Assembly (NCBI GenBank): GCA_012838795.1
Contig: DUOO01000022.1
Span: 1 to 64,000, forward strand
Source: Clostridiaceae bacterium
GTDB lineage: Bacteria; Bacillota; Clostridia; Saccharofermentanales; DTU023
Direction: 5' to 3'
DNA: 64,000 nucleotides
Shown here piece by piece: positions 17,218 through 33,249 of this stretch. Below the pieces are notes generated by a model. It did no database searches, was not told the origin of the DNA, and saw only the letters and a list, made by a program, of their open reading frames with translations. Both the position numbers and the translations under genes were made by a program. The number at the start of each line of letters is the position of its first letter. The first letter of the stretch is position 1.

Positions 17218-17673
17218 ATGACAGATATAGATGACAAAGTGACAAAGAATCCTCTCGATACTTCACTTATGCATGAAAAGCTGAAAGGCGATTCTTTTCC
17301 TCAAAATCGGGATGATTTTCTGGATGACGATATTCGTGAGTTCTTCGATCAGATCTTTAGTGAAACCGGACAAAAGAAAAGTGAAGTGATTAGAAAAGCA
17401 AATCTTTCCCGAGTTTATGGCTACCAGATTATGGAAGGGAGAAGGCGTGGCAAACGAGATTATTATCTGTTGATTGCTCTTGCATTGTCTCTTGATCTGA
17501 AAACAACCCAAAGAATGTTGGCAGTAGCACAATACGGTGCGCTGCATCCGCTTATTAAACGTGATGCCGCTATTATATTTGCGATTAATCATAAATATGA
17601 CATTTTACAGACCTATGATTTTATGTGTTCACTGGGGCTAGTTCCTTTAGATGACGGAACGGAAAGTGAATAA
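17218..17673 (+). CDS. Helix-turn-helix (XRE-like) transcriptional regulator of the kinase locus
   Basis: 151 residues. An acidic N-terminal 40 residues lead to a predicted DNA-binding helical domain at about 40-100 (IREFFDQIFSETGQKKSEVI, then ANLSRVYGYQIMEGRRRGKR with the likely recognition helix, then ALALSLDLKTTQRMLAV). A C-terminal helical segment (RDAAIIFAINHKYDILQTYD) follows. Start ATG 17218 follows GAGGAG; an in-frame upstream codon at 17134 lacks a ribosome binding site. I recall similar small regulators next to kinase genes in Clostridia, but I cannot verify that here. The nearby GCATACAA palindromes are candidate binding sites. No ligand domain is evident. Confidence 0.75.
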   Translation: MTDIDDKVTKNPLDTSLMHEKLKGDSFPQNRDDFLDDDIREFFDQIFSETGQKKSEVIRKANLSRVYGYQIMEGRRRGKRDYYLLIALALSLDLKTTQRMLAVAQYGALHPLIKRDAAIIFAINHKYDILQTYDFMCSLGLVPLDDGTESE

Positions 17674-17680
17674 GATTTCT

Positions 17681-17694
17681 TTGTATGCATACAA
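17681..17694 (+). promoter_or_regulatory. Perfect palindrome TTGTATGCATACAA, candidate operator
   Basis: A 14-base perfect palindrome, eight bases after the regulator's stop codon and 96 bases before the lipoprotein start. Its arms TTGTATGC and GCATACAA are those of the two larger sites at 24576 and 28159, here overlapping by two bases instead of spaced by five. Confidence 0.5.
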
Positions 17695-17701
17695 CATTTT
17701 T

Positions 17702-17739
17702 CAGGACTAATTTAATCATTTTTTTCAATGTCCTGTTTT
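17702..17739 (+). terminator. Possible attenuator or weak terminator
   Basis: CAGGAC (17702-17707) pairs with GTCCTG (17730-17735) across 22 bases, followed by TTTT. It lies between the operator and the lipoprotein gene. The stem is short and the loop long, so activity is uncertain. Confidence 0.35.
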
Positions 17740-17789
17740 ATTGAGGAGATTATCTTTTCGATTGAAAGTTTCAAAGTGTGGAGGTTAAA

Positions 17790-19085
17790 ATGAGCAAATC
17801 GATGAAACTTGCGCAAACTATACTGTGTATGCTAACCGTATTTGTTATAATTCTGACCGGATGTAATTCTGAGCGTAAAATTAAGCCTGATGCGAAAGAG
17901 ATAGCGAAAATTTCTTCTGCAGCAGGCTTTTTAGCAGATAAAGTTGAAAAAAGCAATGGTTTTATTGCGAGCACTCCGAAAAAATCAAATGATTCTGACA
18001 ATGCTTATCTGTATGATAATGCATTAGCAATCATTGCATTATCAAATGTCGGAGCCGATCGGCATGCTCAAAAAATTGCAGATGCAATTTTATTCGCTCA
18101 GGAACATGATCGGACATTTCAGGACGGAAGACTTAGAAATGCTTACATAAGTGGTGATCCTAAAAGCGATTCCGGCAGATCTATTACATCCGGAAAAGTT
18201 GCGATCCGCCTTCCGGGGTTTTGGCGGGATGGAAGTTGGCAAGAGGATTCATATACTGTTTCAACTTCAACGGGAAATATCGCCTGGACTATTTTGGCAC
18301 TGTGTACTGTAGCTGAAAATGCTGATGCCGAGCAGCGAGAGGAATATCTTGAAGCTGCGATTCGGGCAGCGGACTTTGTCCTTACTCTAAAATCTGATAG
18401 TGGTGGTTTTACAGCAGGATATGAAGGCTGGGATGATACACAAAAGAAAGTTACTTATAAATCAACGGAACACAACATTGATCTGATCAGTGCATTCTCT
18501 GCAATTGCCGATGTAATCACACAAAAAAATCCGGAAAAAGCGACGGAGTATCGAAAAGCTTCAGAACATGCTAAAACATTTGTATTGTCCATGTATGATA
18601 AAAAGTTAAATTGTTTTTATACCGGTACGCTGGATGACGGAAAAACTATAAGTAAAGGAGTTATTCCTCTGGACACGAATACTTTGGCGATTCTTGCTTT
18701 AACTGAAGAGCCGGTAGATGTTCATCAAGTTATTTCATTTATCGAGAACAGAATAGCTGTAGGAGAAGGCTTTGATTTCAGTGCCGGAGATCTGGACGGC
18801 GTTTGGAATGAAGGAACTGCACAGATGGCAGTCTGTTACAACAAACTCGGACATTCGGAAAAATATGATTCGGTAATGAAATATTTAGAAACTCAGACCG
18901 AAAAAGACGGCAGTATTCCTGCTGCGGACAGAGATGGAGTTTCTACCGGTTTTGTTATTGCCGGATCAGATACATTATGGGAGTTCAATAATTCTCAAAG
19001 TATTGCTGCTACGAGCTGGCTTGCTTTTGCTCAGATGAAATTAAATCCTTTGGAGCAAAATTCTGAACAGGAAGAAGATGCGTAA
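17790..19085 (+). CDS. Lipoprotein with alpha/alpha-toroid (six-hairpin glycosidase-like) fold
   Basis: 431 residues. A lipoprotein signal peptide ends in the lipobox LTGC, with Cys25 as the lipidated residue, so the protein faces outward on the membrane. The mature part repeats helical hairpins with similar inner helices: LYDNALAIIALSNV, GNIAWTILALCTV, STEHNIDLISAFSAIADV, LDTNTLAILALTEE, GTAQMAVCYNKL and ATSWLAFAQM. That pattern is characteristic of (alpha/alpha)6 barrels as in glycoside hydrolases and prenyl cyclases. I cannot fix a GH family or name catalytic acids. Start ATG 17790 follows GTGGAGG. The stop overlaps the glycosyltransferase-kinase start by eight bases. A surface hydrolase beside a processive glycosyltransferase is a common pairing in exopolysaccharide loci (inference). 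Confidence 0.65.
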   Translation: MSKSMKLAQTILCMLTVFVIILTGCNSERKIKPDAKEIAKISSAAGFLADKVEKSNGFIASTPKKSNDSDNAYLYDNALAIIALSNVGADRHAQKIADAILFAQEHDRTFQDGRLRNAYISGDPKSDSGRSITSGKVAIRLPGFWRDGSWQEDSYTVSTSTGNIAWTILALCTVAENADAEQREEYLEAAIRAADFVLTLKSDSGGFTAGYEGWDDTQKKVTYKSTEHNIDLISAFSAIADVITQKNPEKATEYRKASEHAKTFVLSMYDKKLNCFYTGTLDDGKTISKGVIPLDTNTLAILALTEEPVDVHQVISFIENRIAVGEGFDFSAGDLDGVWNEGTAQMAVCYNKLGHSEKYDSVMKYLETQTEKDGSIPAADRDGVSTGFVIAGSDTLWEFNNSQSIAATSWLAFAQMKLNPLEQNSEQEEDA

Positions 19086-22000
19086 AAAAACAACTCGGAG
19101 AAAAAGAAAAAATCCGGAAAAGCAAAAAAAATCAAGAAAAATTCCGGAAAATATCGGAAATAATATATGTGGTGTTTGGCCTTATATTATTGTGCTTGCG
19201 ATTAATGCAGGAGTACATATTACACTGTTTTTTATTTACGGCAGAACTTTGGAAAGCTTTGTTCGACTTTTTCTTTCTTTTATTTTCTTCATATATCCTT
19301 TGCAATATATCACAGATACTTTATGGTCTCTCCGACCGTCTATTTGTGAGATTCTTGCCGGGAAACTGCAAATTAACAGAAAACATTATATGAATACGGT
19401 GCGTAAAGAAGTTTCCCGCGAAGCACTTCTTCCGGTTACTATCAGTATACCTGTCTATTTGGAAGACAATGAAGTAATCTTTCAAACTTTGCGCCAGAGT
19501 ATGGTTGCAGTAAAACGTTATCATGAATATAGCGGTCAGGAAAGTAATATTGTAGTTTCAGATGACGGGCTTGCACCGATGTTTGGAGGTTATTGTACAA
19601 AAGAAAAAATTGATCGGCTGATTCAGACATTTTTATTTGCTTCCTCTTCACTGACTGAGCAAGAATTACAAGCAGCCGAACGTATTCAGTTTTATCGTAA
19701 GAATCGGATTTCTTTCGTTGTGCGTCCGCAAGAGGGCAGGCGCGGTTTATTTAAAAAATCTTCTAATCTTAATTATACCTTGCGTTTCGGTAATGCTGTA
19801 TCCGCCGGTAATTCTCTTGAAAGCCTGACGCAGAAGAGACAACCTTTTGCAGAAGGTTATGCAGAAGGAGATATTCAGACAAATGAGATAATTCTATTAC
19901 TTGATAAAGATTCCGGAGTAAAAGAAAAAATTATTGAGGCGATTATTCCGGAATTTGCAGCAGATGAAAAACTGGCTTATGTTCAATGTGCGACAAAAGC
20001 GGAAAATTTGTATGAAAACTATTTTTCATACGCTACAGGCCATCAGATCAATAATCTGTTTCATAATGTTTGGCCATGTAAAGCACTGCAAGGTTATTTT
20101 GTACCGCTGATCGGACATAATGTATTTTTGCGTAAGAGTATATTGGAAAAGAGTGGTCTTTGGTCCGAGGACAAAGTATCAGAAGATTTTGATAAAGCTA
20201 TTTGTTTTTACGGTATGGGATACCATGGTAAATATGCCCAATTACAAGGACTTGAGTTTACGGAATATGCAAGCAGGACGTTTACGGAAGAAACATGCAA
20301 ACAACGGCGGTATGCCTATGGTCTATTGGAAATGATTTTTGACGGAACTATCGTCCCTGGGACAACGCGAAACTGTGACCGGTTTTATATGTATATATAT
20401 TTTTTCTCTCTCCTGAATCAAGTGATGCTTTTGCCAACAGTTCTTTACGAATGTTATTTAGGGAATATTTATCTTTTATGGGCGGGTTTTGTCTTTTGCA
20501 GTGTCTGTTTTATTATCCTTCCGTGTATAAGAAGTTTTGTTATGCGACGGCGGCTGCCAAAAGAATATGCTGAGAGAACTACACATACCGTAATTATTTC
20601 ACTCTCTTTTGTGGGACATTCTTATTCAATTCTGGCGGGAACATGCCGCTATATCGCAAACAAAATCAAAGCAAATAATGCACCGTTCCCTTCCACAAAT
20701 GTAGATAAACTCGAATATAGTTTTACTGCCGGAGTGAAAATTATCTTTGAATATCTTCGTAAGAATAAATGGTTTCTGATTATGGCAATTCTCTGTATTG
20801 ATCGTGGTGTTTTCATACTCACGCGAAAAGGAATTGCAACAGCCGCTGTATTTACTTATTGTTACATTCTGTTTTGCGCTGTATTTATTCCGTTTTTATT
20901 GACACCACAATTTTTTTCGGGTTCAAAGTTAAGGCAGGTTATTATCAAAAGAAAGGCGGCAAACGACATGGAAAATTTTGACAATAATATACCTGAGACT
21001 TTTCAAAATCAAGAAAAAACTCAAAATGCCTGGAATATGGATATGCAGATATTATCTCCGAAAATTGTCGATGAATCAGGATATAATGAAACTCCGAGCA
21101 GTGATATAGACATTTTTCTAAACTCGTATAAAAAAACGCTGCGTGATTCATTACCCGAGGCAAGCATGCCGGAAGAGCTTTTAGCTGATTATTCTTACGA
21201 AAGTTGCTTGCGTAAAGATCCTGAAGGGAAGAAAGAAATTTATCTGCTTCGACAAGCGGACAAGACCGGAGTTTTACTTAAAATTACACAAGACTATCCG
21301 GAAGAAGACGCACTTGAGGAAGCAAAACTGTTAGAAAAATTGGATCATCCGGGAATTCCCAAAGTGTTTGACTATTTTGAGTATTCCGGTAAAAAATACA
21401 TCTTGCGCGAATATTTTGAAGGACGTTCGCTTTACGAGATCATTAAAAAAGGCGGTAATCTTGGAGCAAAAGATATTTTTGATATTGTATTGAAACTGGT
21501 GGATATTTTGGAATATTTACATTCCAGAGTACCTCCTGTTATTCATCGTGATATTAAGCCTCAGAATATAATCGTAGGTAAAGACGGAAACATCCATCTG
21601 ATTGATTTCGGAATTGCGAGATTACATAAGCATGAACGTGTTCAAGATACTTCAGTCATTCTGACTCTTGATTATGCTTCACCTGAACAATATGGTTTTG
21701 AGCAGACAACACCCTTATCGGACATATACTCCCTGGGTGTAGTAATGCTTTTTATGGCTACAGGGCGAACAGCCAGAACAGGATTGGAATCACAAATTGT
21801 TAATAATCGACTTCGCAACTTGATTGAGCAATGTATTGCTTTTAATCCGAAATCTCGAATTCAGAGTGTAGAGGAGATTAGGGATTATATCATGCGAGAC
21901 AGTAATATCCGGAAGTCAAGAAGAAAACGTTCTCTCGTAGTTGCATCCTTATTTTTGATTTGCACGACTCTATTTTCTGCTTTGTCTTACGGAGCGGGAT

Positions 22001-22965
22001 TTTTCAGCGCAAAAAGTCATGCTGCCGATATTGGTTATGATCGAGGTTACGCTGTTGGTTATACAGATGGGTATGATGCTGTACCTATTCTTTTGACAAG
22101 TGCTGTACAACCTGATCTTAAACGTGGCAATAGTCTCGGTAACTCTGCTGTTGCAGGTGGAGCTTATGCTGCACAGAGTGAAGATTTCATTTTCTTTATT
22201 TCTAATGGGAATATTTACAAAATGTCGGAAAATGAAGCTGAAACTGAGCTGTTAGTGGAAGGAAAAGATGCTACAGCTTTGAGTTGTTACAATGATTGGT
22301 TATATTATTCATCCGACGGGAATATTCTGCAAACCAATATCCATACTCTTGAAACCGATATTCTCTGTGCCGACTTAACCGGAGTATTACATATATTAAA
22401 CGATCATTATTATGTCGAAACTGATGACGGACTATATTTACTGAATATAACAACCGGCAATATTTCGTCTTTGAACAATATACCTTCCTCGCAATCTTTA
22501 AATATAGTTGATGACAGTATATTTTATATCGATGAGAAAGATCGTTTCTTATACAATTCCAATCTCAACAGCAATCATTCAATTAGAATTTTGGAGCGCA
22601 ATTGCAATAGTATTTGTCTGTTTGAAGATACTTTATTTTGTGCAGTTAATGATGGTGATGATGAAGGAACGGAAGAATTGCTGTTGATCCGTGACGATTT
22701 TGAGGAAGCTGAAATTCTTACCGAGATAAATGCTGCCATGATTAACGCAACCATAAATGGAATATATTATATCAATGCACACGACGGAACAATTAACTTA
22801 TGTTCTTTTGATGGTCGTATCAGAAATAGAATATCCAAGAATTATGCTGCGGATATGAATATTGTCGGAGATTGGATTTTCTATCATAATGCTTCGGACG
22901 GAAACAGATTGTGGTGTGTCAGGCTTAATGGGGCCAATGATCATCCTGTGCAATTCGGAGGATAG
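19078..22965 (+). CDS. Glycosyltransferase family 2 - Ser/Thr kinase - DUF5050-like propeller fusion
   Basis: 1295 residues in one frame. Residues ~35-85: two TM helices. ~118-420: GT2 catalytic domain with ISIPVYLED, VVSDDG (161-163), LLDKDSG (Asp276/Asp278), the VSEDFD block (368-372, TED-like base) and KQRRY where processive synthases have QxxRW. ~435-610: further TM helices. ~675-940: Hanks-type kinase with Lys735 (VLLKI), HRDIKPQN (823-830), DFG (843-845) and SPEQYG. ~952-972: one TM helix. Then a Gly-Tyr repeat (GYDRGYAVGYTDGY) and a C-terminal extracellular beta-propeller resembling DUF5050. The glycine-rich loop is degenerate. An in-frame ATG at 20968 with AAAGGCGG upstream could give a separate kinase product. 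All GT and kinase catalytic residues I looked for are present. It is co-translated with the lipoprotein gene and the pseudokinase gene. Confidence 0.88.
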   Translation: MRKKTTRRKRKNPEKQKKSRKIPENIGNNICGVWPYIIVLAINAGVHITLFFIYGRTLESFVRLFLSFIFFIYPLQYITDTLWSLRPSICEILAGKLQINRKHYMNTVRKEVSREALLPVTISIPVYLEDNEVIFQTLRQSMVAVKRYHEYSGQESNIVVSDDGLAPMFGGYCTKEKIDRLIQTFLFASSSLTEQELQAAERIQFYRKNRISFVVRPQEGRRGLFKKSSNLNYTLRFGNAVSAGNSLESLTQKRQPFAEGYAEGDIQTNEIILLLDKDSGVKEKIIEAIIPEFAADEKLAYVQCATKAENLYENYFSYATGHQINNLFHNVWPCKALQGYFVPLIGHNVFLRKSILEKSGLWSEDKVSEDFDKAICFYGMGYHGKYAQLQGLEFTEYASRTFTEETCKQRRYAYGLLEMIFDGTIVPGTTRNCDRFYMYIYFFSLLNQVMLLPTVLYECYLGNIYLLWAGFVFCSVCFIILPCIRSFVMRRRLPKEYAERTTHTVIISLSFVGHSYSILAGTCRYIANKIKANNAPFPSTNVDKLEYSFTAGVKIIFEYLRKNKWFLIMAILCIDRGVFILTRKGIATAAVFTYCYILFCAVFIPFLLTPQFFSGSKLRQVIIKRKAANDMENFDNNIPETFQNQEKTQNAWNMDMQILSPKIVDESGYNETPSSDIDIFLNSYKKTLRDSLPEASMPEELLADYSYESCLRKDPEGKKEIYLLRQADKTGVLLKITQDYPEEDALEEAKLLEKLDHPGIPKVFDYFEYSGKKYILREYFEGRSLYEIIKKGGNLGAKDIFDIVLKLVDILEYLHSRVPPVIHRDIKPQNIIVGKDGNIHLIDFGIARLHKHERVQDTSVILTLDYASPEQYGFEQTTPLSDIYSLGVVMLFMATGRTARTGLESQIVNNRLRNLIEQCIAFNPKSRIQSVEEIRDYIMRDSNIRKSRRKRSLVVASLFLICTTLFSALSYGAGFFSAKSHAADIGYDRGYAVGYTDGYDAVPILLTSAVQPDLKRGNSLGNSAVAGGAYAAQSEDFIFFISNGNIYKMSENEAETELLVEGKDATALSCYNDWLYYSSDGNILQTNIHTLETDILCADLTGVLHILNDHYYVETDDGLYLLNITTGNISSLNNIPSSQSLNIVDDSIFYIDEKDRFLYNSNLNSNHSIRILERNCNSICLFEDTLFCAVNDGDDEGTEELLLIRDDFEEAEILTEINAAMINATINGIYYINAHDGTINLCSFDGRIRNRISKNYAADMNIVGDWIFYHNASDGNRLWCVRLNGANDHPVQFGG

Positions 22966-22969
22966 TTTC

Positions 22970-24529
22970 ATGTTGTTTAAACCGAAATTCAAATGGGAAG
23001 ACCAAGAGGAACGCTCTGTATTTGATATTGTTTCCGAAGACGGAATCATGCAAGTAAATGATATTTTGTATGTTGTTCAGCAAATCTGTATTCTGTTGGA
23101 AAGGCAATATCGTGATGATATATCAAAATTTAGAGGGTATATTCATCCGAAAAATATTATCATTTCAAAAACGAATCAAGTTCAAATTTCTGAGGCAATG
23201 CGACCGATTTTTGAGCGGGAAGCATATATTTCTCCGGAACAAAGTCAGGCGGATACTTATACTTCCGAATCAATTATTTTTAGTATAGGCGTACTGATGA
23301 TTTTTATGGCAACCGGTCATGAAAATAAAACAAATCCGGAATCGTTTATTGAAAATCGTGTACTTCGTAATTTGATTGAAAAATGTATTGCTTTCGATCC
23401 GCAGTCACGTTTTCGTGATATAAAAGAACTGATGAATGCGATCAAAAGCACAAAACTATCTCCGAAAAAATTATTGTTTGCTGTTTGGATATTAGTTTGT
23501 GTTTGCTTAATAGCAGGTGCGGTTTTTCATTTTTATCAACAGGGCAAATTGCGAGGTGATTCTATCGGAGATAATTCCGGCTATGCAACAGGCTATGCAA
23601 TCGGTTATGAAAAAGGCTTTTCGGATGCACCCGGAATCGGAATAAAAAATCCGGTCTATGATTCGAAAAGCGGGAATCTTTCCGGAAATTACACATCGGA
23701 ATTAGGTGCAATTGCAACTAATTCCGAAGACGAAGTGTTTTATATTTTTGAAAATAATATCTATCGGATGAATCCCTATACAGAAGAAATTGCTTTGGTA
23801 CAATCAAATGTCGGAGCACATAATCTTAACTATTTCGACGGTTGGCTTTATTACTGTACAGATGAAAATATTTTCAGAATCAATCCTGACAATTTAAAGC
23901 AGGAAGAGTTTTGTGATTCGCATTCCGGGACTCTTTATATTATCAATGAGCTTTTTTATCTTTATGACAGTTCCAAAACCGGATATTTATACGAGATTGA
24001 TCCTGAGACGAAAACACTTACACAATTAAGCGGTTCAATGGACTATCTTTGCCTTAATATTGTTGATCAAAAATTATATTATATTGACTCCGATAAAGGC
24101 AATCACATATACAGCAGTGATTTAGATGGCGGAAACTTAAAGATGATTAACGGCAATTACTGTGAAAGCTTTTGTATTAATCAAGATTCAATTTTTGCCT
24201 GTACAGATAATACTGATAGTAATTCGAATACATCTTGGACAAGTTCTTTGCTCAGTATGGATTTAGACGGCGGGAATCTTGATAATATGACAAATATCTC
24301 TGTGTATTATCCGAATGTTACAGACGGGGGCATTTTTTATGTTGCAGGTAAAAATAAAACTCTCGATTGGATGTCTTTAGACGGCAGAACTCACTACACC
24401 GTCGTGCCGTCACGTACCGGTCCGTTTAATATTGCCGGGCGATGGATATTCTATATAAACGAAGAAGACGACGGCAATCTGTGGCGGGTACGAATTGACG
24501 GTTCAGGGAATACCGGATTAACACCTTAA
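22970..24529 (+). CDS. Membrane pseudokinase with DUF5050-like propeller
   Basis: 519 residues. Residues ~15-160 align with the C-lobe of the neighbouring kinases (AYISPEQS, FSIGVLMIFMATG, RNLIEKCIAFDPQSRF), but the N-lobe is almost absent and catalytic motifs are gone: HRDIKPQN is replaced by RGYIHPKN (55-62) and the DFG position by SEAM. One TM helix lies at ~168-188, followed by GYATGYAIGYEKGF and an extracellular propeller (repeats of LYYIDSDKG, YSSDLDGGN, FYINEEDDGN type). Start ATG 22970 follows GGAGG, which overlaps the end of the previous gene. It most likely scaffolds or regulates the active kinase rather than phosphorylating; this is inference from the lost residues. Confidence 0.82.
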   Translation: MLFKPKFKWEDQEERSVFDIVSEDGIMQVNDILYVVQQICILLERQYRDDISKFRGYIHPKNIIISKTNQVQISEAMRPIFEREAYISPEQSQADTYTSESIIFSIGVLMIFMATGHENKTNPESFIENRVLRNLIEKCIAFDPQSRFRDIKELMNAIKSTKLSPKKLLFAVWILVCVCLIAGAVFHFYQQGKLRGDSIGDNSGYATGYAIGYEKGFSDAPGIGIKNPVYDSKSGNLSGNYTSELGAIATNSEDEVFYIFENNIYRMNPYTEEIALVQSNVGAHNLNYFDGWLYYCTDENIFRINPDNLKQEEFCDSHSGTLYIINELFYLYDSSKTGYLYEIDPETKTLTQLSGSMDYLCLNIVDQKLYYIDSDKGNHIYSSDLDGGNLKMINGNYCESFCINQDSIFACTDNTDSNSNTSWTSSLLSMDLDGGNLDNMTNISVYYPNVTDGGIFYVAGKNKTLDWMSLDGRTHYTVVPSRTGPFNIAGRWIFYINEEDDGNLWRVRIDGSGNTGLTP

Positions 24530-24710: not shown

Positions 24711-26318
24711 ATGATTGAAATCTTAGCACTTATCGCATTAGTTAATATAAACAAGAAAAATGCTCTGGCACGTGGACGAAAACCGGGTGGCTTCATAGCA
24801 CTTACTATCTGTCTATGGTTGGGGTTGGAATTTTTAGGTGCTTTCATAGGAGGAGCGTTAAATCTCGGTTTTGGAATTTATGTTCTTGCTATTATAATGG
24901 CAGGGATCGGTGCTCTTATCTCATATCTGGCAGCGAAAAATTGTAAGCCGGGAACTTATATGCCTCCTGCACAGCCGGTGATACAAAACACCGCCCCAAA
25001 TGTTGAGCCGGCTGCTTTCTCCGGACCGGCACAAATGCAGTACATGACTACACCTTATTCAGAATACGAACAAGGGACACTGACTTCATATTGCCACAAA
25101 TGCGGTGCACCGTTAATAGAAGGTGCATTATTTTGCAGTGACTGCGGACAGCAACGCTATATGCCGGTTCAACCTGTCAACACCCGGACATCTATAGAAA
25201 AGAATGATGCTGTACAGTTTCAGTATAATAGTAATGATTCAGTTCCCTGTACGGTAGAACCGATGCGAGCCGTATGGACAGCAGTTTGGCTTATCGGTAT
25301 TTGGTTGATGATTTATATTACCCATATTTTGCCGGATAACAATCTGATTTATTGTGGTTCGGTTTCTTATACTATTGTTACTGTACTTCTCGGCACAGGC
25401 ATGTATCTGTTAATGCAGCAGGGCGTCAAATACAAGGTTTATGCAGGCGGCATCATGTTCATGGCAGTTCTGATTTATCTATTCAATTATTTTCTGCTGG
25501 ATGTACTTATATTGGGCAGACTGGGTGTCAATCTGCATGATTTGTTTTTAAGTTCGATTTCTCTTATGAGAATCATTAACATCCTTCTGCGAGTATTTGT
25601 TGCTGCAGGCGGCGCACTATTATTTACCCGCCTTTTGAGACCGAAACGGCAGTGTGAACCGGTTCTTGATAATGACACAACAGTTACTTGGGATTCCGGG
25701 GTTAAAGACGAAAAGAAGAGAGTTTGGCGAACCTCATTATATACGGCATTAGTGAGTATGCTTATCCAAATCGTTTTTACAATATCCACGTCACGGATAT
25801 ACTCGGAACGTCCGATCTTGCTGGTGACATTCTTTGTCAGTTGCCTGATCACAGCAACAACTCTGTTCTTTACTCCTCCTGCTTTGCATGCACTTTCCGC
25901 CATGAAAACTAAGCATATCCAATTATCAGGTTGGGGACTTGTTTGGTGTTGGTTATGTGTGGCAGGAATGTTTTTTTCAATTGCAATGTACATAGCGGTC
26001 ATGGTGAATCTTGTACCTTTTCCCATACAGATGTATTCTTCACAATTCTTAATGAGTATTGTTGCGTTTACGGGCTTTATTATGCTGATTGCTAAAAAAC
26101 GCTTGGGTTGGTACATTGTTTTGTTCGGATCATATGTTGCACTGGTCGGGCAATTCAATGAATCTTTTAATGCTGTAGTGCAGGGTGCGACTGATTACAC
26201 ACCACTATTAACAGGTGCGATATTTGGCAGTTTGAATCCGTTGATCACGTGGCTCTCTATCCGGGGAGCCTGGCGTGCTAATCCCGTGAATATCCGACAA
26301 CCGCTTCTTGTGCAGTGA
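24711..26318 (+). CDS. Zinc-ribbon polytopic membrane protein
   Basis: 535 residues. Two TM helices near the N-terminus (~27-50 and 53-75) are followed by a Pro/Ala-rich linker and a zinc ribbon with Cys128-x2-Cys131-x10-Cys142-x2-Cys145 (YCHKCGAP and CSDCGQQ). Eight to ten further TM helices run from ~190 to the end. It has no recognised transporter motif. Zinc-ribbon membrane proteins with unknown function are frequent in Clostridia beside Ser/Thr kinases and often lack assigned roles. Start ATG follows GAGGAGG. Its own upstream palindrome at 24576 and the 181-base gap suggest it starts a new transcription unit. It may be a kinase substrate or partner (inference). Confidence 0.7.
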   Translation: MIEILALIALVNINKKNALARGRKPGGFIALTICLWLGLEFLGAFIGGALNLGFGIYVLAIIMAGIGALISYLAAKNCKPGTYMPPAQPVIQNTAPNVEPAAFSGPAQMQYMTTPYSEYEQGTLTSYCHKCGAPLIEGALFCSDCGQQRYMPVQPVNTRTSIEKNDAVQFQYNSNDSVPCTVEPMRAVWTAVWLIGIWLMIYITHILPDNNLIYCGSVSYTIVTVLLGTGMYLLMQQGVKYKVYAGGIMFMAVLIYLFNYFLLDVLILGRLGVNLHDLFLSSISLMRIINILLRVFVAAGGALLFTRLLRPKRQCEPVLDNDTTVTWDSGVKDEKKRVWRTSLYTALVSMLIQIVFTISTSRIYSERPILLVTFFVSCLITATTLFFTPPALHALSAMKTKHIQLSGWGLVWCWLCVAGMFFSIAMYIAVMVNLVPFPIQMYSSQFLMSIVAFTGFIMLIAKKRLGWYIVLFGSYVALVGQFNESFNAVVQGATDYTPLLTGAIFGSLNPLITWLSIRGAWRANPVNIRQPLLVQ

Positions 26319-26358: not shown

Positions 26359-28092
26359 TTGTCCGATATAACAGAATTCTTACAATCATATAATGAAATG
26401 CTCCAACAGGAATTAGCGGATGCCGACATGCCCTCGGAACTGACAGAGCGGTTCGTTTTTGACAGCTTAATCAAACGGAATGATGAGAAAGAAGTATATT
26501 TCATCAGGCGCAAATCAGACGGTCTTCGCACCGTACTCCGTATCACAAGTGCAGAGAACGGAGAAGATGCTGCTTCCGAAAGTCTGATATTGGCGAAGCT
26601 TGATCATCCTGCCATACCGAAAGTGCTGGGTTCATGGAAGTATAATGGACGCAGTTTTATGGTAAGGGAATATTTTGCAGGCGATGACCTCAAGGCCTTT
26701 ATCCGCAAGTATGGAACATTGAATCGGGAAAAGCTGTTTGATATCACTTTACAATTATGTGAGATTTTATCCTATATTCATAGTCAGAATCCTGCTGTAA
26801 TCCATAGGGATATTAAGCCTGAAAACATCATTATTGCAGGCAACAATGATGTGAAGCTTATTGATTTCGGTATTGCGCGTGATTTCAAAAAAGAAACCGA
26901 TAGCGATAAGGACACACAGATTGCGGGAACAAGATCTTATATGGCTCCTGAACAGTTCGGCAGTGAGCAGACCGACCACCGTGCAGATATTTATTCTTTG
27001 GGTATGGTTATGATTTTCATGGCAACAGGAAAAACCAAGAAGCAAAATCTTAAAACCTTTTATCCATATAAAGAATTAGTGCCGCTCATTGAAAAATGTC
27101 TCAGAAAAGATCGCGATCAGCGCTTTAAAACGGTAAAGCAGCTGAAAAATAAAATTCTTTGGATTCAGCAACAACAAACCCGGAAGATTTTTATTGCCGC
27201 CGGGATATGTCTTTCAGTTATCGCCGCTTTTTTATTCGGGCTGTTTATCGGACAAAAGCGAGGTTTCCAAAACGGCGTTAATTTTATTATGGATTATCCT
27301 GTAGATAAAAATCGTCCGTTCACCCAAGAGGAACTTTTGGAGCCGATTGCTTTTGACAGCGAATATCTGGATTTAGCGGTGCGAAATATTTTGAATAAGC
27401 AACAAGGCGAGGTGATATATCGTACTGAAGTAAACAGTCGAATAGGTGAACTCCGGATTTACGGAACGTATATCCTTCATCCGGATTTGGAAGATGAACT
27501 GCTCAAAACGCATGTAGACAAAGGAACAGTAAATTACACCACCGATACAGGTTTTTGGATTGATATGCGGGGCGATATCAGTTCACTTTCAGATATTCCC
27601 AACATGTATTATTTGCGCAACTTGACCTTGACATCACAATCGATATCCGATCTTTCCCCTCTTTCGGGAATGAAACTGGAAAATATTAATTTAAGTGATA
27701 ATTTTGTGGGAAATTTATTGCCGTTGAAAGATATGGTAACACTGCAGGAGTTGGATGTATGCCAAAATCCTTTGAGTGACCTTACTCCGATTTCTCGTTT
27801 ATTCTCTCTGGAAACACTTGACATAAGCCAAACGCAGGTGACAGACTTGACACCGCTTGCCGAGCTTGTCAAGTTGCAGACACTGAAATTGGAATATTGT
27901 GACATAGAAGATATCAGCATATTGGCAATACTCCCCAATTTACGGGAAGTTGATGTAAGCAATACACTGATCACAGACCTCTCACCACTCATTAGACCGT
28001 TTAATCCCATCACGGTGCGATGTGTGGGTTTACCCCCGGATGTTGTAGATGCGGTACGAGATAATCCGGGCATTGTGTTAGTTGAGGAATAG
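26359..28092 (+). CDS. Membrane Ser/Thr kinase with leucine-rich-repeat ectodomain
   Basis: 577 residues. The kinase domain spans ~5-265: HRDIKPEN (149-156), LIDFGIAR with DFG at 169-171, YMAPEQFG, and FMATGKT. The position of the ATP-binding lysine reads VLRI, so Arg61 replaces the usual Lys; the glycine-rich loop is also degenerate. One TM helix lies at ~277-297. The extracellular part has a ~90-residue domain and then about five to six 22-residue leucine-rich repeats of internalin type (LETLDISQTQVTDLTPLAEL and neighbours, ~385-560). The start is TTG 26359 with AAGGAGG nine bases before. Its N-terminus (DITEFLQSYNEML) aligns with residues 676-688 of the glycosyltransferase fusion, so the two kinases are paralogues. 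Confidence 0.87.
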   Translation: MSDITEFLQSYNEMLQQELADADMPSELTERFVFDSLIKRNDEKEVYFIRRKSDGLRTVLRITSAENGEDAASESLILAKLDHPAIPKVLGSWKYNGRSFMVREYFAGDDLKAFIRKYGTLNREKLFDITLQLCEILSYIHSQNPAVIHRDIKPENIIIAGNNDVKLIDFGIARDFKKETDSDKDTQIAGTRSYMAPEQFGSEQTDHRADIYSLGMVMIFMATGKTKKQNLKTFYPYKELVPLIEKCLRKDRDQRFKTVKQLKNKILWIQQQQTRKIFIAAGICLSVIAAFLFGLFIGQKRGFQNGVNFIMDYPVDKNRPFTQEELLEPIAFDSEYLDLAVRNILNKQQGEVIYRTEVNSRIGELRIYGTYILHPDLEDELLKTHVDKGTVNYTTDTGFWIDMRGDISSLSDIPNMYYLRNLTLTSQSISDLSPLSGMKLENINLSDNFVGNLLPLKDMVTLQELDVCQNPLSDLTPISRLFSLETLDISQTQVTDLTPLAELVKLQTLKLEYCDIEDISILAILPNLREVDVSNTLITDLSPLIRPFNPITVRCVGLPPDVVDAVRDNPGIVLVEE

Positions 28093-28466: not shown

Positions 28467-28496
28467 ATATTCGCAATGAATAAGAAAGGAAATGTT

Positions 28497-31169
28497 ATGA
28501 ACAAAGAAATATATACTATATCAATGGGAATTACTCTATTCGAAGATAGCAGGTATCCGGGTCCCGTTTCGCAAAACCCTGAAGAGGTAAACCGTTTCCT
28601 GGCACCTTTTGTTTTAGAAATCTTCAAAAAATATTATCCCGATGCAATTGACGATAAAAATAATCATTGGAATTATGATACTCGTTTTATGGTTATCCGG
28701 AATTTTGGAATCCATAATACACAGCATTTAGAATTTCGTGATCGAAATACCGGTGAAATTATTGATCACACAAAATATTATAATATTTGTCATGCAGCAA
28801 AAGAAAGCTGGCAAAAAGCTGTAATGCAAGCTTATCCCGAATACGACCATGCTGCTTTGGCCGAAGGAATGGCTAGGGCATCGTTTGAATATTTTCCTCA
28901 AAACGGCTTGCTTATAGGGTTCACGCTATTAAAAGGATTAGTGCGACAAGGTACGGAAGATTTTATGACAGAACGTGAACGTAATACTTTACAACACGAA
29001 CACGATACTGTGCAAGGAAATCCGCAAAGCGTACAAAGAACATTATTTATAAGATTTGATATAGAAAAACTATCCGGCAGTTACGGAGCTGATAGTTATC
29101 GCATTTTATTTAGCACAGTCTCTTCTGAATTGCTGGCAGGTGCAATTTTGCGGATGGGAGATTCCGCGGATACGCTTGCCGGCAGAGAAAATGTAAATGT
29201 TATAGGAATAACAATGCAGGATAACAGTCAATTAGACATGATCAGGCAGGAACTTTCTGCTTCAACAGCATTTATGGCTGTTTCTGATACAATGCCTTTT
29301 TCAGTTGTGGACGGGTTAGGACAAGAGCCGCTTGTTTTAGACGGAACCTTTACCGTTTCCGGTGTCCAAATTCAAGACGACAGATTTTCTTGGGCAAAAA
29401 GTGTCTGGGACGAACTTAAAAAATCCGGTAAGGCAACAGATCCAATCATAGATTCTGTTAATCAGGAAAACAATATTGCCAAGATGTTTTCTATAGAATA
29501 TGGCAATATTCAGGCAATACCTTTTCCGGAAGGAACGAAACCCTTAGAGTTTCTTGATGCCAACTATTTCGTGGTAACAAACGGCAAAGTAATGGGAACA
29601 CGATATGGGGTAGTTGATAATAACGGCATGATTGTTTTACCTGTTACCCAAAAACATTCTGAAGCAATGTTCGGTCCTATAAAATATGAGATATTGAATG
29701 AGAAAGCGATTTTGCTTAAAAGCAACGGATTTACCCTCTACAGCATGACCGGCAATCTGATTCTGAGTTGCAAGAAACTGGTTAATCTTGGCTCAGATAT
29801 GTTGGCAGTTTCTAATAAGAAGAAGTATGCAATCGTAAAAGTTGACGGCAGCGCGGTAAGCAGTGAAGAATTCGACACAGTTCTTCCTTTTTCCGACGGT
29901 ATTGCTGTTGCAAAAAAAGATGACATGGTATTTGGCTACTCAGAAGATGGTACTATTGCCTTCACGCTTACAAATATCGACGAGATCCGCGGATTTTCCA
30001 ATGGGTATGCCGTGTTCAAACAAGGGAAAAAATGGGGAGCGATTGACACCAAGGGGAATATTGCACTGGAAGCGAAGTGGAACTGGCTCAGAGATAGCGC
30101 TTTTGATGCCTTCGTATTTTCTGAAGCTACGTATCCTAAAATGAATATAGATCATTTTGGTTTAGTGGGAGTTGGTGATCGTATTATTATGCCATGCGAA
30201 TATCATAATTTGGAGCAAATAGATAAAAATTTATTGAAGCACGGCACCATGATTTTTTATCAGTATACGATGGATAACAAGCGGTATGTTAAATCTCTGT
30301 TGACCTTTGGGGTCATCGATCTGCAAGGCAATGAAATCATTCCGCAAGGAATGGCTCTTATCGGTACGGAAAGCGAGGGACTCCGAGCATACGCAAGGTA
30401 CTATTCGGATAATAATGTTGAATTCGGGTATATGGATGAAAATTGGAAAAGTATGTTTATTGTTTCGAAAGCAGAAAATATTCCGGCCAGAGATGCATTT
30501 AAATATGGTGTCGGAGAAGCAAAGACATATTTGTTTATCTATGATATTAACGATTTGTTTTCTCCTTTTTCAAATGGAAAAGCCTGGACCAGATTATCAC
30601 GTGAAGGTCGAATTTTAAAAGACGGACGTTGGATAGATAATACCGGACAGGATATATCCGGCGCCCCGATACCGCCTCTCGAGAAAACACAAAAAATGGC
30701 TGAAATTTCAAACAGTCCCGACGAAATTAAAGCGCGGGAAGCTCTTGAAAGATTAGGCAGTCGTTTTACGACTGAAGGAGGATATTTTCCGCACAAAAGA
30801 TGCAGACGCCTCATCGGGGATCTTTGGGAGATCGAAGCAAAAGACGGTAAGAAATCCTTCGTTTTAAGCCAAATGGAGTCTCTGAGCGGATTTTCCTGCG
30901 GTTTAATTGCAGTGAGAGATCTGTCTGTGAAAAAATGGGGCTTTGCAGATCAATACGGAAATCTGGTAGTGCCTCCGATATATGATTATGTCAGACCTTT
31001 TAATAATAATCGCACAATAGCACTAGAGGGAAAAAAGTATTATATAATCAAGAGAGAAGCCATTGTCAACAATAATAGCAAAGAAAAACTTAACAGTTAT
31101 ACTGAGACCGTTCTTAACAGCAATACCGATACAATTATTAGCAGTAATCCTGAAATTATCCAACAATAA
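28497..31169 (+). CDS. WG-repeat protein with uncharacterised N-terminal domain
   Basis: 890 residues without signal peptide or TM helix, so probably cytoplasmic. Residues 1 to ~330 form a domain I do not recognise, starting YTISMGITLFEDSRYPGP. The rest carries degenerate WG (KWGxxDxxG) repeats: RYGVVDNNGMIVLP, KKWGAIDTKGNIALEAKW, TFGVIDLQGNEIIP, and KKWGFADQYGNLVVPPIYDY near the C-terminus. WG repeats form beta-rich interaction surfaces. Start ATG 28497 has AAAGGAAA upstream; an earlier ATG at 28476 lacks one. It follows the small TM gene and precedes the zinc-ribbon/TPR gene, and may be an adaptor or kinase substrate (inference). Confidence 0.75.
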   Translation: MNKEIYTISMGITLFEDSRYPGPVSQNPEEVNRFLAPFVLEIFKKYYPDAIDDKNNHWNYDTRFMVIRNFGIHNTQHLEFRDRNTGEIIDHTKYYNICHAAKESWQKAVMQAYPEYDHAALAEGMARASFEYFPQNGLLIGFTLLKGLVRQGTEDFMTERERNTLQHEHDTVQGNPQSVQRTLFIRFDIEKLSGSYGADSYRILFSTVSSELLAGAILRMGDSADTLAGRENVNVIGITMQDNSQLDMIRQELSASTAFMAVSDTMPFSVVDGLGQEPLVLDGTFTVSGVQIQDDRFSWAKSVWDELKKSGKATDPIIDSVNQENNIAKMFSIEYGNIQAIPFPEGTKPLEFLDANYFVVTNGKVMGTRYGVVDNNGMIVLPVTQKHSEAMFGPIKYEILNEKAILLKSNGFTLYSMTGNLILSCKKLVNLGSDMLAVSNKKKYAIVKVDGSAVSSEEFDTVLPFSDGIAVAKKDDMVFGYSEDGTIAFTLTNIDEIRGFSNGYAVFKQGKKWGAIDTKGNIALEAKWNWLRDSAFDAFVFSEATYPKMNIDHFGLVGVGDRIIMPCEYHNLEQIDKNLLKHGTMIFYQYTMDNKRYVKSLLTFGVIDLQGNEIIPQGMALIGTESEGLRAYARYYSDNNVEFGYMDENWKSMFIVSKAENIPARDAFKYGVGEAKTYLFIYDINDLFSPFSNGKAWTRLSREGRILKDGRWIDNTGQDISGAPIPPLEKTQKMAEISNSPDEIKAREALERLGSRFTTEGGYFPHKRCRRLIGDLWEIEAKDGKKSFVLSQMESLSGFSCGLIAVRDLSVKKWGFADQYGNLVVPPIYDYVRPFNNNRTIALEGKKYYIIKREAIVNNNSKEKLNSYTETVLNSNTDTIISSNPEIIQQ

Positions 31170-31221: not shown

Positions 31222-33249
31222 ATGATTTGCAAAAACTGTGGGACACAAGTACCGGAAGGCAAAAAGTTTTGTCATATGTGTGGTAATCCCGTAATGGCAG
31301 ATCCACCCGAAGTTGACGTGCCGGCAGAACTTTTTGAAACTGCTGAAACAGTTGAACCTTCCGAAGTTACCGAAATTACAGATCTTTTTGAAACTGCTGA
31401 AACAGTGGAACCCTCCGAAGTTACTGAAATTACAGGTCTTTTCGAGAATGCTGAAACAGTGGATTTATTTGAATCTGCCGGTACAATAGATTCATCTACA
31501 TCTCCGGGAACAGCAGAACATTTCACAGCTCCTGAAATATCTGCTTCACCTGAAGCTTCCGGAACAGCAGATTCTTATCCTGTTCCCGGATCATTTTCTC
31601 CGCCCGCAGCCCCGTCAGATTATCTTAATTCTGAACAGACTTATTCTGTTGATGGAATGTATCCTTCTTATGAAAGTCCTGACAACCAATATTTTTCCCC
31701 TCAACAAGTTGAATACACCTTCGAGCAAACTCCGGAATCACCGAAGAAAAAAACCAAAAAGAAAAAACTATTTATTATCGGCGGTTCTGTCTTGGCTGTA
31801 GTCGTAGTTGCAGCAATTTTGCTGGTTCCTTTTATTATTAAGAAAACAAAACAAACAAAATATGATAATGCAATCGCATTGTTAGAAGACGGGGATTATG
31901 CCAAAGCTCAAGAACAGTTTACTGAACTCGGAGATTTTGAGGATGCGCAAGAAAAAGTTAAATACTGTCATAATAAAGAAAAATATGACAATGCAGCGGA
32001 ACTATTAGATAAGGGTAACTACGCTCAAGCTCAAAAGCAATTCACGGAACTTGGAAATTTTGAGGATGCTCAGGAAAAAACTAAATACTGTCAGAACAAA
32101 GAAAAATATGACAATGCGATAGCTTTATTGGATGCCGGCGATTATGTTCAAGCCAATAAGCTTTTCACTGAACTCGGAGATTTTGAGGATGCTCAGGAAA
32201 AAGCTAAATACTGTCAGAACAAAGAAAAATATGATAGTGCAATGGCTTTACTGGATGCAGGTGATTATGTTCAAGCTCAAGAACAATTTACTGAACTCGG
32301 GGATTTTGAGGATGCTCAGGAAAAAGCCGAATATAGTCAAGACAAGGAAAAGTATAATAGCGCAATGGCTTTACTGGATTCCGGGGACTATGTTCAGGCC
32401 AAAGAAAAATTCACGGAACTCGGGGATTTTGAGGATGCCGCAATTCAAGTTAATAATTGTGAGAACAGTATTGCTTATGAAGAAGCTGAGGAATTGCTGA
32501 CTCAAGAAAAATACAGTGATGCTGTGACAGCATTTGAGCAGTTAGGAGATTTTCGCGATTCAATTGAAAAAGCAGAATATTGCGAGAATTGGTTAGATTA
32601 TTTAAGTGCTGAAGAATTATTTGAAGCCGGGGATTATGCAGCAGCAAAAGTTATTTTTTCAGAATTATCGAATATTTCTTTCTCTGATGCATCACAAAAA
32701 TATTTAACCTGTGTTAATAAAGAAGATTATAAGGCTGCAGAAAAACTATATGATGAAGGATCTTATTATGATGCATATCTGGCTTTTGAAGCATTAGGTT
32801 CTTTTGAAGACGCTGAACAACGCAAGTCCGAATGCAAACAAACTTTTCCCTACACCGGAGAACAGTACCGTAATCCAAACTATTCTTGGGGTGATTTTTC
32901 ATTAACAATCATACCTCCTGAAACTGATCAAAGTCGAAATTATTTAAAAATTTACACGGAGGATGACGTACTCGTGAGTTCCATCACTATTGATCAAGGT
33001 TCAAGTGCTGTAGTGTCTTTACCACAGGGAACCTATCGGATCAGAAATGCTTATGGGTCCGGTGCTTGGTTCGGAGAAGAAGACATGTTTGGTGATGAAG
33101 GTAACTATATAGTGTTACTTAACGGCGAGAGTGACAGTGATTTGTTTTCCCTGGCGGCCGGCTATACATATACGCTATATTTACGCTCTTACGAAGATGT
33201 ACCCGGAGATCCGGTAGATTCGCAATATGAAAGCAGAGATAATTTTTAA
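31222..33249 (+). CDS. Zinc-ribbon membrane protein with tandem TPR-like repeats
   Basis: 675 residues. N-terminal zinc ribbon: Cys3-x2-Cys6 and Cys17-x2-Cys20. An acidic, low-complexity linker includes near-exact 18-residue repeats (LFETAETVEPSEVTEIT type, residues ~38-85). One TM helix lies at ~183-206 after a Lys cluster. Outside are about eight helical repeats; the first five are 41 residues each and nearly identical (cores LLDAGDYVQAQEQF and TELGDFEDAQEKAKYC), the later ones shorter and diverged. A C-terminal beta-rich domain of ~120 residues follows (YLKIYTEDDVLVSSITID). The ribosome binding site is GAAAGGAAA. It ends the kinase locus. The layout (cytosolic ribbon, TM, TPR stalk) suggests an envelope assembly or sensing role, unproven. 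Confidence 0.8.
   Translation: MICKNCGTQVPEGKKFCHMCGNPVMADPPEVDVPAELFETAETVEPSEVTEITDLFETAETVEPSEVTEITGLFENAETVDLFESAGTIDSSTSPGTAEHFTAPEISASPEASGTADSYPVPGSFSPPAAPSDYLNSEQTYSVDGMYPSYESPDNQYFSPQQVEYTFEQTPESPKKKTKKKKLFIIGGSVLAVVVVAAILLVPFIIKKTKQTKYDNAIALLEDGDYAKAQEQFTELGDFEDAQEKVKYCHNKEKYDNAAELLDKGNYAQAQKQFTELGNFEDAQEKTKYCQNKEKYDNAIALLDAGDYVQANKLFTELGDFEDAQEKAKYCQNKEKYDSAMALLDAGDYVQAQEQFTELGDFEDAQEKAEYSQDKEKYNSAMALLDSGDYVQAKEKFTELGDFEDAAIQVNNCENSIAYEEAEELLTQEKYSDAVTAFEQLGDFRDSIEKAEYCENWLDYLSAEELFEAGDYAAAKVIFSELSNISFSDASQKYLTCVNKEDYKAAEKLYDEGSYYDAYLAFEALGSFEDAEQRKSECKQTFPYTGEQYRNPNYSWGDFSLTIIPPETDQSRNYLKIYTEDDVLVSSITIDQGSSAVVSLPQGTYRIRNAYGSGAWFGEEDMFGDEGNYIVLLNGESDSDLFSLAAGYTYTLYLRSYEDVPGDPVDSQYESRDNF
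31858..32472 (+). repeat. Five tandem 123-bp coding repeats
   Basis: Units begin AAATATGA-like at 31858, 31981, 32104, 32227 and AAGTATAA at 32350, exactly 123 bases apart. They are similar at DNA level, not only at protein level, which points to recent expansion or recombination within the gene. Copy number may vary among strains. Confidence 0.85.

Follow-up and report, generated by a model that had tools for sequence, protein, structure and literature searches.

The 64,000-nucleotide stretch analyzed here (the window; positions 1 to 64,000 of contig DUOO01000022.1, Clostridiaceae bacterium assembly GCA_012838795.1) carries a single gene (19078..22965, +) in which a membrane glycosyltransferase of family GT2 is fused to a Ser/Thr kinase, a transmembrane (TM) helix and a DUF5050 β-propeller. 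With rather better than even confidence, we read its product as a synthase resembling the cellulose synthase BcsA, in which a transmembrane receptor kinase occupies the control slot of PilZ and switches the synthase. We infer that control of the glycosyltransferase (GT) by the kinase in cis is the best reading, and kinase activity, the GT as kinase target, the direction of signaling and the chemistry of the product are inferred with it. The open reading frame (ORF) begins with ATG, encodes 1295 amino acids and contains no internal stop between 19078 and 22965 on the plus strand; at a base composition of 37% GC, log10 P for a frame of such length staying open by chance is approximately −42. Judged against curated cut-offs, Pfam places Glyco_trans_2_3 at residues 271 to 474 (69.7 bits versus a cut-off of 27), Pkinase at 742 to 918 (123 versus 31.7 bits) and DUF5050 at 1113 to 1289 (69 versus 27 bits). 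Hydropathy indicates TM helices near residues 37–55, 61–79, 438–456, 466–484, 564–582, 590–608 and 952–970, and together with charge it places two ahead of the GT domain, four behind it and one past the kinase. This order is consistent with a cytoplasmic GT and kinase and a propeller outside, a topology that the K/R-rich cytoplasmic loops fit. An earlier note, made from the letters alone, had described one 1295-codon frame running GT2, TM, kinase, TM and propeller, and ORF, Pfam and hydropathy analyses confirm that layout.

The fusion is genuine, conserved and translated as one frame. Intact, stop-free copies are present in 10 loci (the window, G002, G006, G004, G034, G035, L010, G047, G772 and G805), with identities to the window's fusion protein of 91% (G002), 82% (G006), 81% (G004), 59 to 60% (G034, G035 and L010) and 55% (G047). 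Fusion-bearing loci are spread over several families of Clostridia; the named relatives are metagenome-assembled genomes deposited as Clostridiaceae and Oscillospiraceae, and the G772 fusion lies in a single-contig genome of 3.2 Mb from a different family. An 11th locus, in G108 (L066 1398–4968), encodes the GT and most of the kinase, followed by a frame break and then the remainder; this genome is a draft, 74% complete, and sequencing error and decay are both possible origins of the break. The fusion joint itself is a linker (residues 613–665; 20914..21072, +) in which none of the 53 positions is invariant, all insertions and deletions are in frame, and dN/dS is 0.32 to 0.62 in four species pairs. 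Because the frame survives every insertion and deletion and dN/dS lies in this range, the linker is translated and under selection at the protein level. The earlier note held that the fusion would be undone by a frame interruption (stop or frameshift) in the stretch from residue ∼610 to ∼675, and none is present there in the 11 kinase-bearing loci; its other reservation, that relatives might carry only separate genes, is answered by fusions in 10 loci. This GT is found in eight of 188 genomes of the order, and samples of 391 genomes from the class, of 200 and 392 from G523's family and order, and of 398 from the phylum yielded only a handful more. No relative of the fusion was present in the plasmid collection. 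As sampled, the GT family is a narrow one within Clostridia.

Model fold matching and motif invariance identify the GT portion (residues 1–612; 19078..20913, +) as a BcsA-like GT2 with TM helices. A phmmer search against the sequences of solved structures gave no match and a profile search gave only a weak match to BcsA (E ∼0.01), so that fold comparison was needed. A model of the first 625 residues of the fusion (mean predicted local distance difference test [pLDDT] score 74.5) exhibits a GT-A fold with a flanking TM bundle matching that of BcsA. The best fold matches are bacterial cellulose synthases (Z 19–21 over 409–466 residues), with model residues 33 to 616 pairing with residues 67 to 581 of Rhodobacter BcsA (Z 19.6, root-mean-square deviation [rmsd] 5.3, 466 residues); hyaluronan synthase, cyclic glucan synthase and plant CesA follow. 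DDG (162–163, within SDDG 161–164), DKD (276–278) and SED (368–370) are invariant, the QxxRW site reads KQRRY (408–412) with R411 and Y412 invariant, and a gating-loop-like FxxT motif is kept as FPST (537–540). SDDG, DKD and SED, as well as HRD and DFG of the kinase, stand where the earlier note had placed them, and the 10 intact relatives show no change at any acidic residue of these motifs; GT and kinase retain their catalytic residues together across the family. The fusion thus resembles BcsA of Rhodobacter and Escherichia coli in its GT2-plus-TM fold (Z ∼20 over 409–466 residues), its DxD, its SED in place of TED, its FxxT motif, a putative control domain just behind the final TM helix and a probable partner hydrolase. 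Unlike BcsA, it carries a kinase-TM-propeller unit in place of PilZ and KQRRY in place of QxxRW, shares 13 to 15% identity, and has no recognized BcsB or BcsC beside it.

For cellulose-like synthases, control is commonly taken to mean cyclic di-GMP (c-di-GMP) and PilZ. In Rhodobacter BcsA, PilZ opens with an RxxxR motif whose first residue is R580 (PMC5567048), and since the BcsA match of the model ends at 581, the kinase is placed where PilZ would follow. A Pfam scan of the fusion shows the kinase and DUF5050, and no PilZ, in its C-terminal part. Three relatives of this GT are kinase-less. In two (G523, L078 7574–10909; G1091, L096 8411–11731), the last TM helix is followed by a degenerate GGDEF domain with SGGNF as its motif, and by an EAL domain with EALVRW / DGFGSG; these altered motifs suggest a c-di-GMP receptor. 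The third is a solo GT of 629 amino acids in G636, coupled through an ATGA stop–start overlap to a histidine kinase gene, behind which come a response regulator and a further histidine kinase (L081 6870–10702 for this gene group). Since such close kinase-less relatives exist, the kinase is best regarded as an exchangeable module, and the system so appears to be a GT-glycosidase pair with exchangeable control modules. This points to an on/off switch that evolution can swap in cellulose-synthase-like machines. The G636 solo GT and G108 lie on long branches, and the kinase group requires one or two module changes. A wider proposal, which we offer tentatively and regard as doubtful in its full extent, is that the PilZ position is a plug-in socket accepting a receptor Ser/Thr kinase, a degenerate GGDEF-EAL unit or a coupled histidine kinase, and that in the kinase form synthase and receptor are a single molecule, which senses its product beyond the membrane by means of a kinase whose catalytic lysine is relocated in the manner of WNK kinases. 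A lipoteichoic acid (LTA)-synthase-like gene lies upstream of the GT in both G523 and G1091; in G523 (L078) the downstream toroid lipoprotein is fused to a GDPD domain, and the G1091 protein is equally long. The LTA-synthase-like gene and the toroid-GDPD fusion hint at a glycerophosphate-modified glycan.

C-terminal control domains on BcsA-like synthases are known already from PilZ, the BgsA tail and RiGT2. BgsA of Sinorhizobium, a synthase of mixed-linkage glucan, shows that a control tail need not be PilZ (PMC5567048), and both it and RiGT2 of Romboutsia (PMC10374906) resemble the fusion in being BcsA-like GT2 enzymes whose activity is governed by a C-terminal cytoplasmic tail. Their tails, unlike that of the fusion, bind c-di-GMP or are PilZ rather than kinases, and have no outside sensor. 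In Listeria PssA-E, likewise a Firmicute exopolysaccharide synthase with a dedicated regulatory protein (PMC4125290), the c-di-GMP receptor is a separate GGDEF protein, PssE, and no kinase is involved. A search of the open-access literature returned no published description of a GT2-kinase fusion, nor of a Ser/Thr kinase that brings a transmembrane sensor into the control slot; the earlier note, too, had known of no such system.

In the mechanism we propose, the fusion propeller and that of a neighboring half-kinase protein would sense a cell-surface cue, which may be the polymer. The two proteins would pair by way of their TM helices and adjoining Gly/Tyr segments, altering the state of the kinase domain. 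The kinase would turn the attached synthase on or off, either through contact or through phosphorylation of the synthase or of its gating region, and would relay the same signal to a helix-turn-helix (HTH) protein encoded upstream. A lipoprotein of glycosidase fold would trim or free the product. BcsZ-type hydrolases trim or release cellulose in this way. The fusion propeller (22135..22962, +), assigned by Pfam and alignment, has 14% invariant positions in the fusion alignment versus 47% each for GT and kinase, as expected for a variable outside input coupled to a fixed inside output. Control of a GT by a kinase in response to outside polysaccharide has precedent in Bacillus subtilis, where exopolysaccharide acts through EpsA and EpsB; EpsB is a tyrosine kinase, and its phosphorylation of the glycosyltransferase EpsE activates that enzyme (PMC4304235). 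That system shares with the fusion an outside cue leading to kinase control of an exopolysaccharide GT (PMC4304235), and differs in its separately encoded BY-type tyrosine kinase and in its other, unfused GT.

The proposed partners are encoded with the fusion in a conserved four-gene cassette (17218–24529). The half-kinase protein (22970..24529, +) consists of a kinase C-lobe, with HRD and DFG lost, a TM helix, a Gly/Tyr segment and a DUF5050 propeller; it is a paralogue of the C-terminal half of the fusion (34% identity to residues 779–1287), and all 11 kinase-form loci have it, whereas none of the three others does. Its Gly/Tyr repeat is also that of the fusion, where hydropathy places helix 952–970 and the outside repeat segment (GYDRGYAVGYTDGYDAVP) at 21931..22086 (+). 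The lipoprotein gene (17790..19085, +; alternative start GTG 17778) overlaps the fusion start by eight bases, and a lipoprotein or membrane-anchored protein of this one toroid family lies beside the GT in 14 of 14 loci. The lipoprotein model (pLDDT 82.9) has an (α/α)6 fold of the GH15/MmpH-like type, matching MmpH (Z 32.1, rmsd 2.8, 311 residues) and further dextran dextrinase and GH15 glucoamylase (Z 29.9). Given these matches, an outside glycosidase role is probable, and the lipoprotein is, on its modeled fold, probably an extracellular glycosidase. Sequence alignment alone gives D80, D111, E156, D157, E231 and E345 as the invariant acids of the family. A sequence search with the lipoprotein gave only spurious matches to nitric oxide synthase, and no GH144 or GH186 glucanase was among the best structure matches listed, which excludes nothing.

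The genomes of the window (G000), G034, G035 and G047 yielded neither GGDEF nor PilZ proteins, which speaks for control of the synthase by its attached kinase, as regulation in these four cannot then rest on canonical c-di-GMP. Several other observations weigh against such control. GGDEF proteins are present in six kinase-form genomes (G002, G004, G006, G108, G772 and G805), which breaks a strict rule that the kinase form marks a genome without c-di-GMP and means that the kinase is not a simple stand-in for missing c-di-GMP. The sister species G002, G004 and G006 have 8 to 16 GGDEF domains. The missing glycine-rich loop and the Arg at residue 735 in four members, described below, mean that the kinase might be weak or inactive. 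Swapped fusion partners indicate that the slot tolerates control modules and are not proof of GT control, most fusion members come from metagenome-assembled or draft genomes, and the exclusive pairing with the HTH protein would fit GT-independent signaling equally well.

This last point underlies the main rival, in which the kinase is a surface receptor with the HTH protein and gene expression as its true output, the fusion merely siting the sensor at the polymer exit; we judge this unlikely, though by no means negligible. The HTH-like protein (17218..17673, +; 151 amino acids, without a Pfam match) is paired with the kinase form, being present in 11 of 11 kinase-form loci at 69 to 89% identity and in none of the three others. 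Close orthologues (at least 69%) are found only in fusion-bearing genomes, within the order; distant paralogues are common, and a kinase gene adjoins nine of the 12 examined (L124–L135). This pattern and the neighbors of the paralogues mark out the HTH protein as a likely partner of the kinase module. An HTH output leaves unexplained, however, why the module sits in the slot used by PilZ and GGDEF-EAL, and why the covalent fusion is retained over several families. Cis control, as put forward in the earlier note, gains indirect support from the position of the kinase, and the HTH and half-kinase partners suggest that the kinase may have an output besides, or in place of, the GT.

The kinase domain (residues 666–940; 21073..21897, +) is of Hanks type by Pfam and alignments, with PknB as its best solved-structure match. 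HRD (823–825), DFG (843–845), the catalytic-loop Asn and the αC glutamates E747/E748 are invariant in the 10 to 11 members, so that the HRD Asp, DFG Asp and αC Glu of active Hanks kinases are all present; the usual glycine-rich loop is missing. A β3 lysine is not a feature of the family: residue 735, named as the kinase lysine in the earlier note, is Lys in seven of 11 members, the window copy included, and Arg in the other four (G034, G035, G047 and G108). The invariant N-lobe lysine is instead Lys719 on β2 (Lys in 11 of 11), which a profile alignment sets against the Ser of PknB GGMSEV, that is, PKA position 55. This pattern is reminiscent of the eukaryotic WNK kinases, whose relocated catalytic lysine occupies PKA position 55 (PMC1821047); conventional kinases of ∼700 amino acids from the same bacterial family have Ala at the WNK position and Lys at β3. 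Lys735 is probably not the essential lysine, and a WNK-like mechanism through Lys719 is plausible from the alignment. The β3 Lys is lost in some members, but unlike WNK kinases the family is bacterial, has Arg rather than Cys at β3, and keeps the β3 Lys in seven of 11. The comparison with PASTA-type kinases drawn in the earlier note did not hold, as NF033483 scored 134 bits versus a cut-off of 450 and the ectodomain is DUF5050. Like PknB/PrkC the fusion has a Hanks kinase, a single TM helix and an outside sensor, and unlike them it has no PASTA repeats or usual glycine-rich loop, a catalytic Lys probably placed as in WNK, and a joined GT.

The missing glycine-rich loop and the β3 Arg in four of 11 members would also fit a pseudokinase, binding nucleotide or not, that acts as an allosteric lever on the synthase without phosphotransfer, and the neighboring paralogue has dropped the N-lobe, HRD and DFG entirely. 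However, invariance of HRD, DFG, the αC glutamates, the catalytic-loop Asn and Lys719 would be unlikely without catalysis, and we regard this explanation as improbable. Bacterial DYD pseudokinases are defined by a DYD motif and a lost αC Glu (PMC12599244), and membership in that group is ruled out by the invariant DFG and E747/E748. Less probable again is the production of two proteins, the full fusion and, by initiation within the frame at codon 632, a free receptor kinase: the ATG at 20971 is preceded by GAAAGGCGG, and the four species of the window's genus all share it and a GAAAGG upstream, but other genera lack the start, no relative interrupts the frame, and dN/dS of the linker stays under 1. 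An assembly or annotation artifact merging two adjacent genes, to which the many metagenome-assembled or draft members and the G108 frame break after the kinase might point, is refuted by the fusion's recurrence in independent genomes (10 loci, down to 55% overall identity, including the 3.2 Mb single-contig genome).

Should the kinase indeed switch its attached synthase, phosphorylation or kinase contact would directly gate a polymer synthase, and the control domains of such synthases would be exchangeable. The fusion would offer sensor, kinase and enzyme within one molecule, each open to mutation on its own, with the natural swaps (GGDEF-EAL and solo forms) as controls, and a family of bacterial kinases in which the question of the WNK lysine can be tested.

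Further genes lie next to the cassette. A polytopic membrane protein with a zinc ribbon (24711–26318) is found beside it within the genus and, more weakly, in G034, G035 and G047. A second membrane kinase of the same cluster, with a leucine-rich repeat (LRR) ectodomain (26359..28092, +; Pfam, alignment), is at genus level a probable relative rather than a core part of the cassette; such kinase-LRR proteins in four of four genus species have Lys at the WNK position and Arg at β3. A WG-repeat protein (28476–31169) has a relative near the G636 solo GT (L081 558–2402; 26% identity over the WG part), and a zinc-ribbon/repeat protein (31222–33249) has another (L081 12112–13467; 37% over 70 residues near the C terminus). 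The window and the G636 solo-GT locus may therefore have a wider neighborhood in common.

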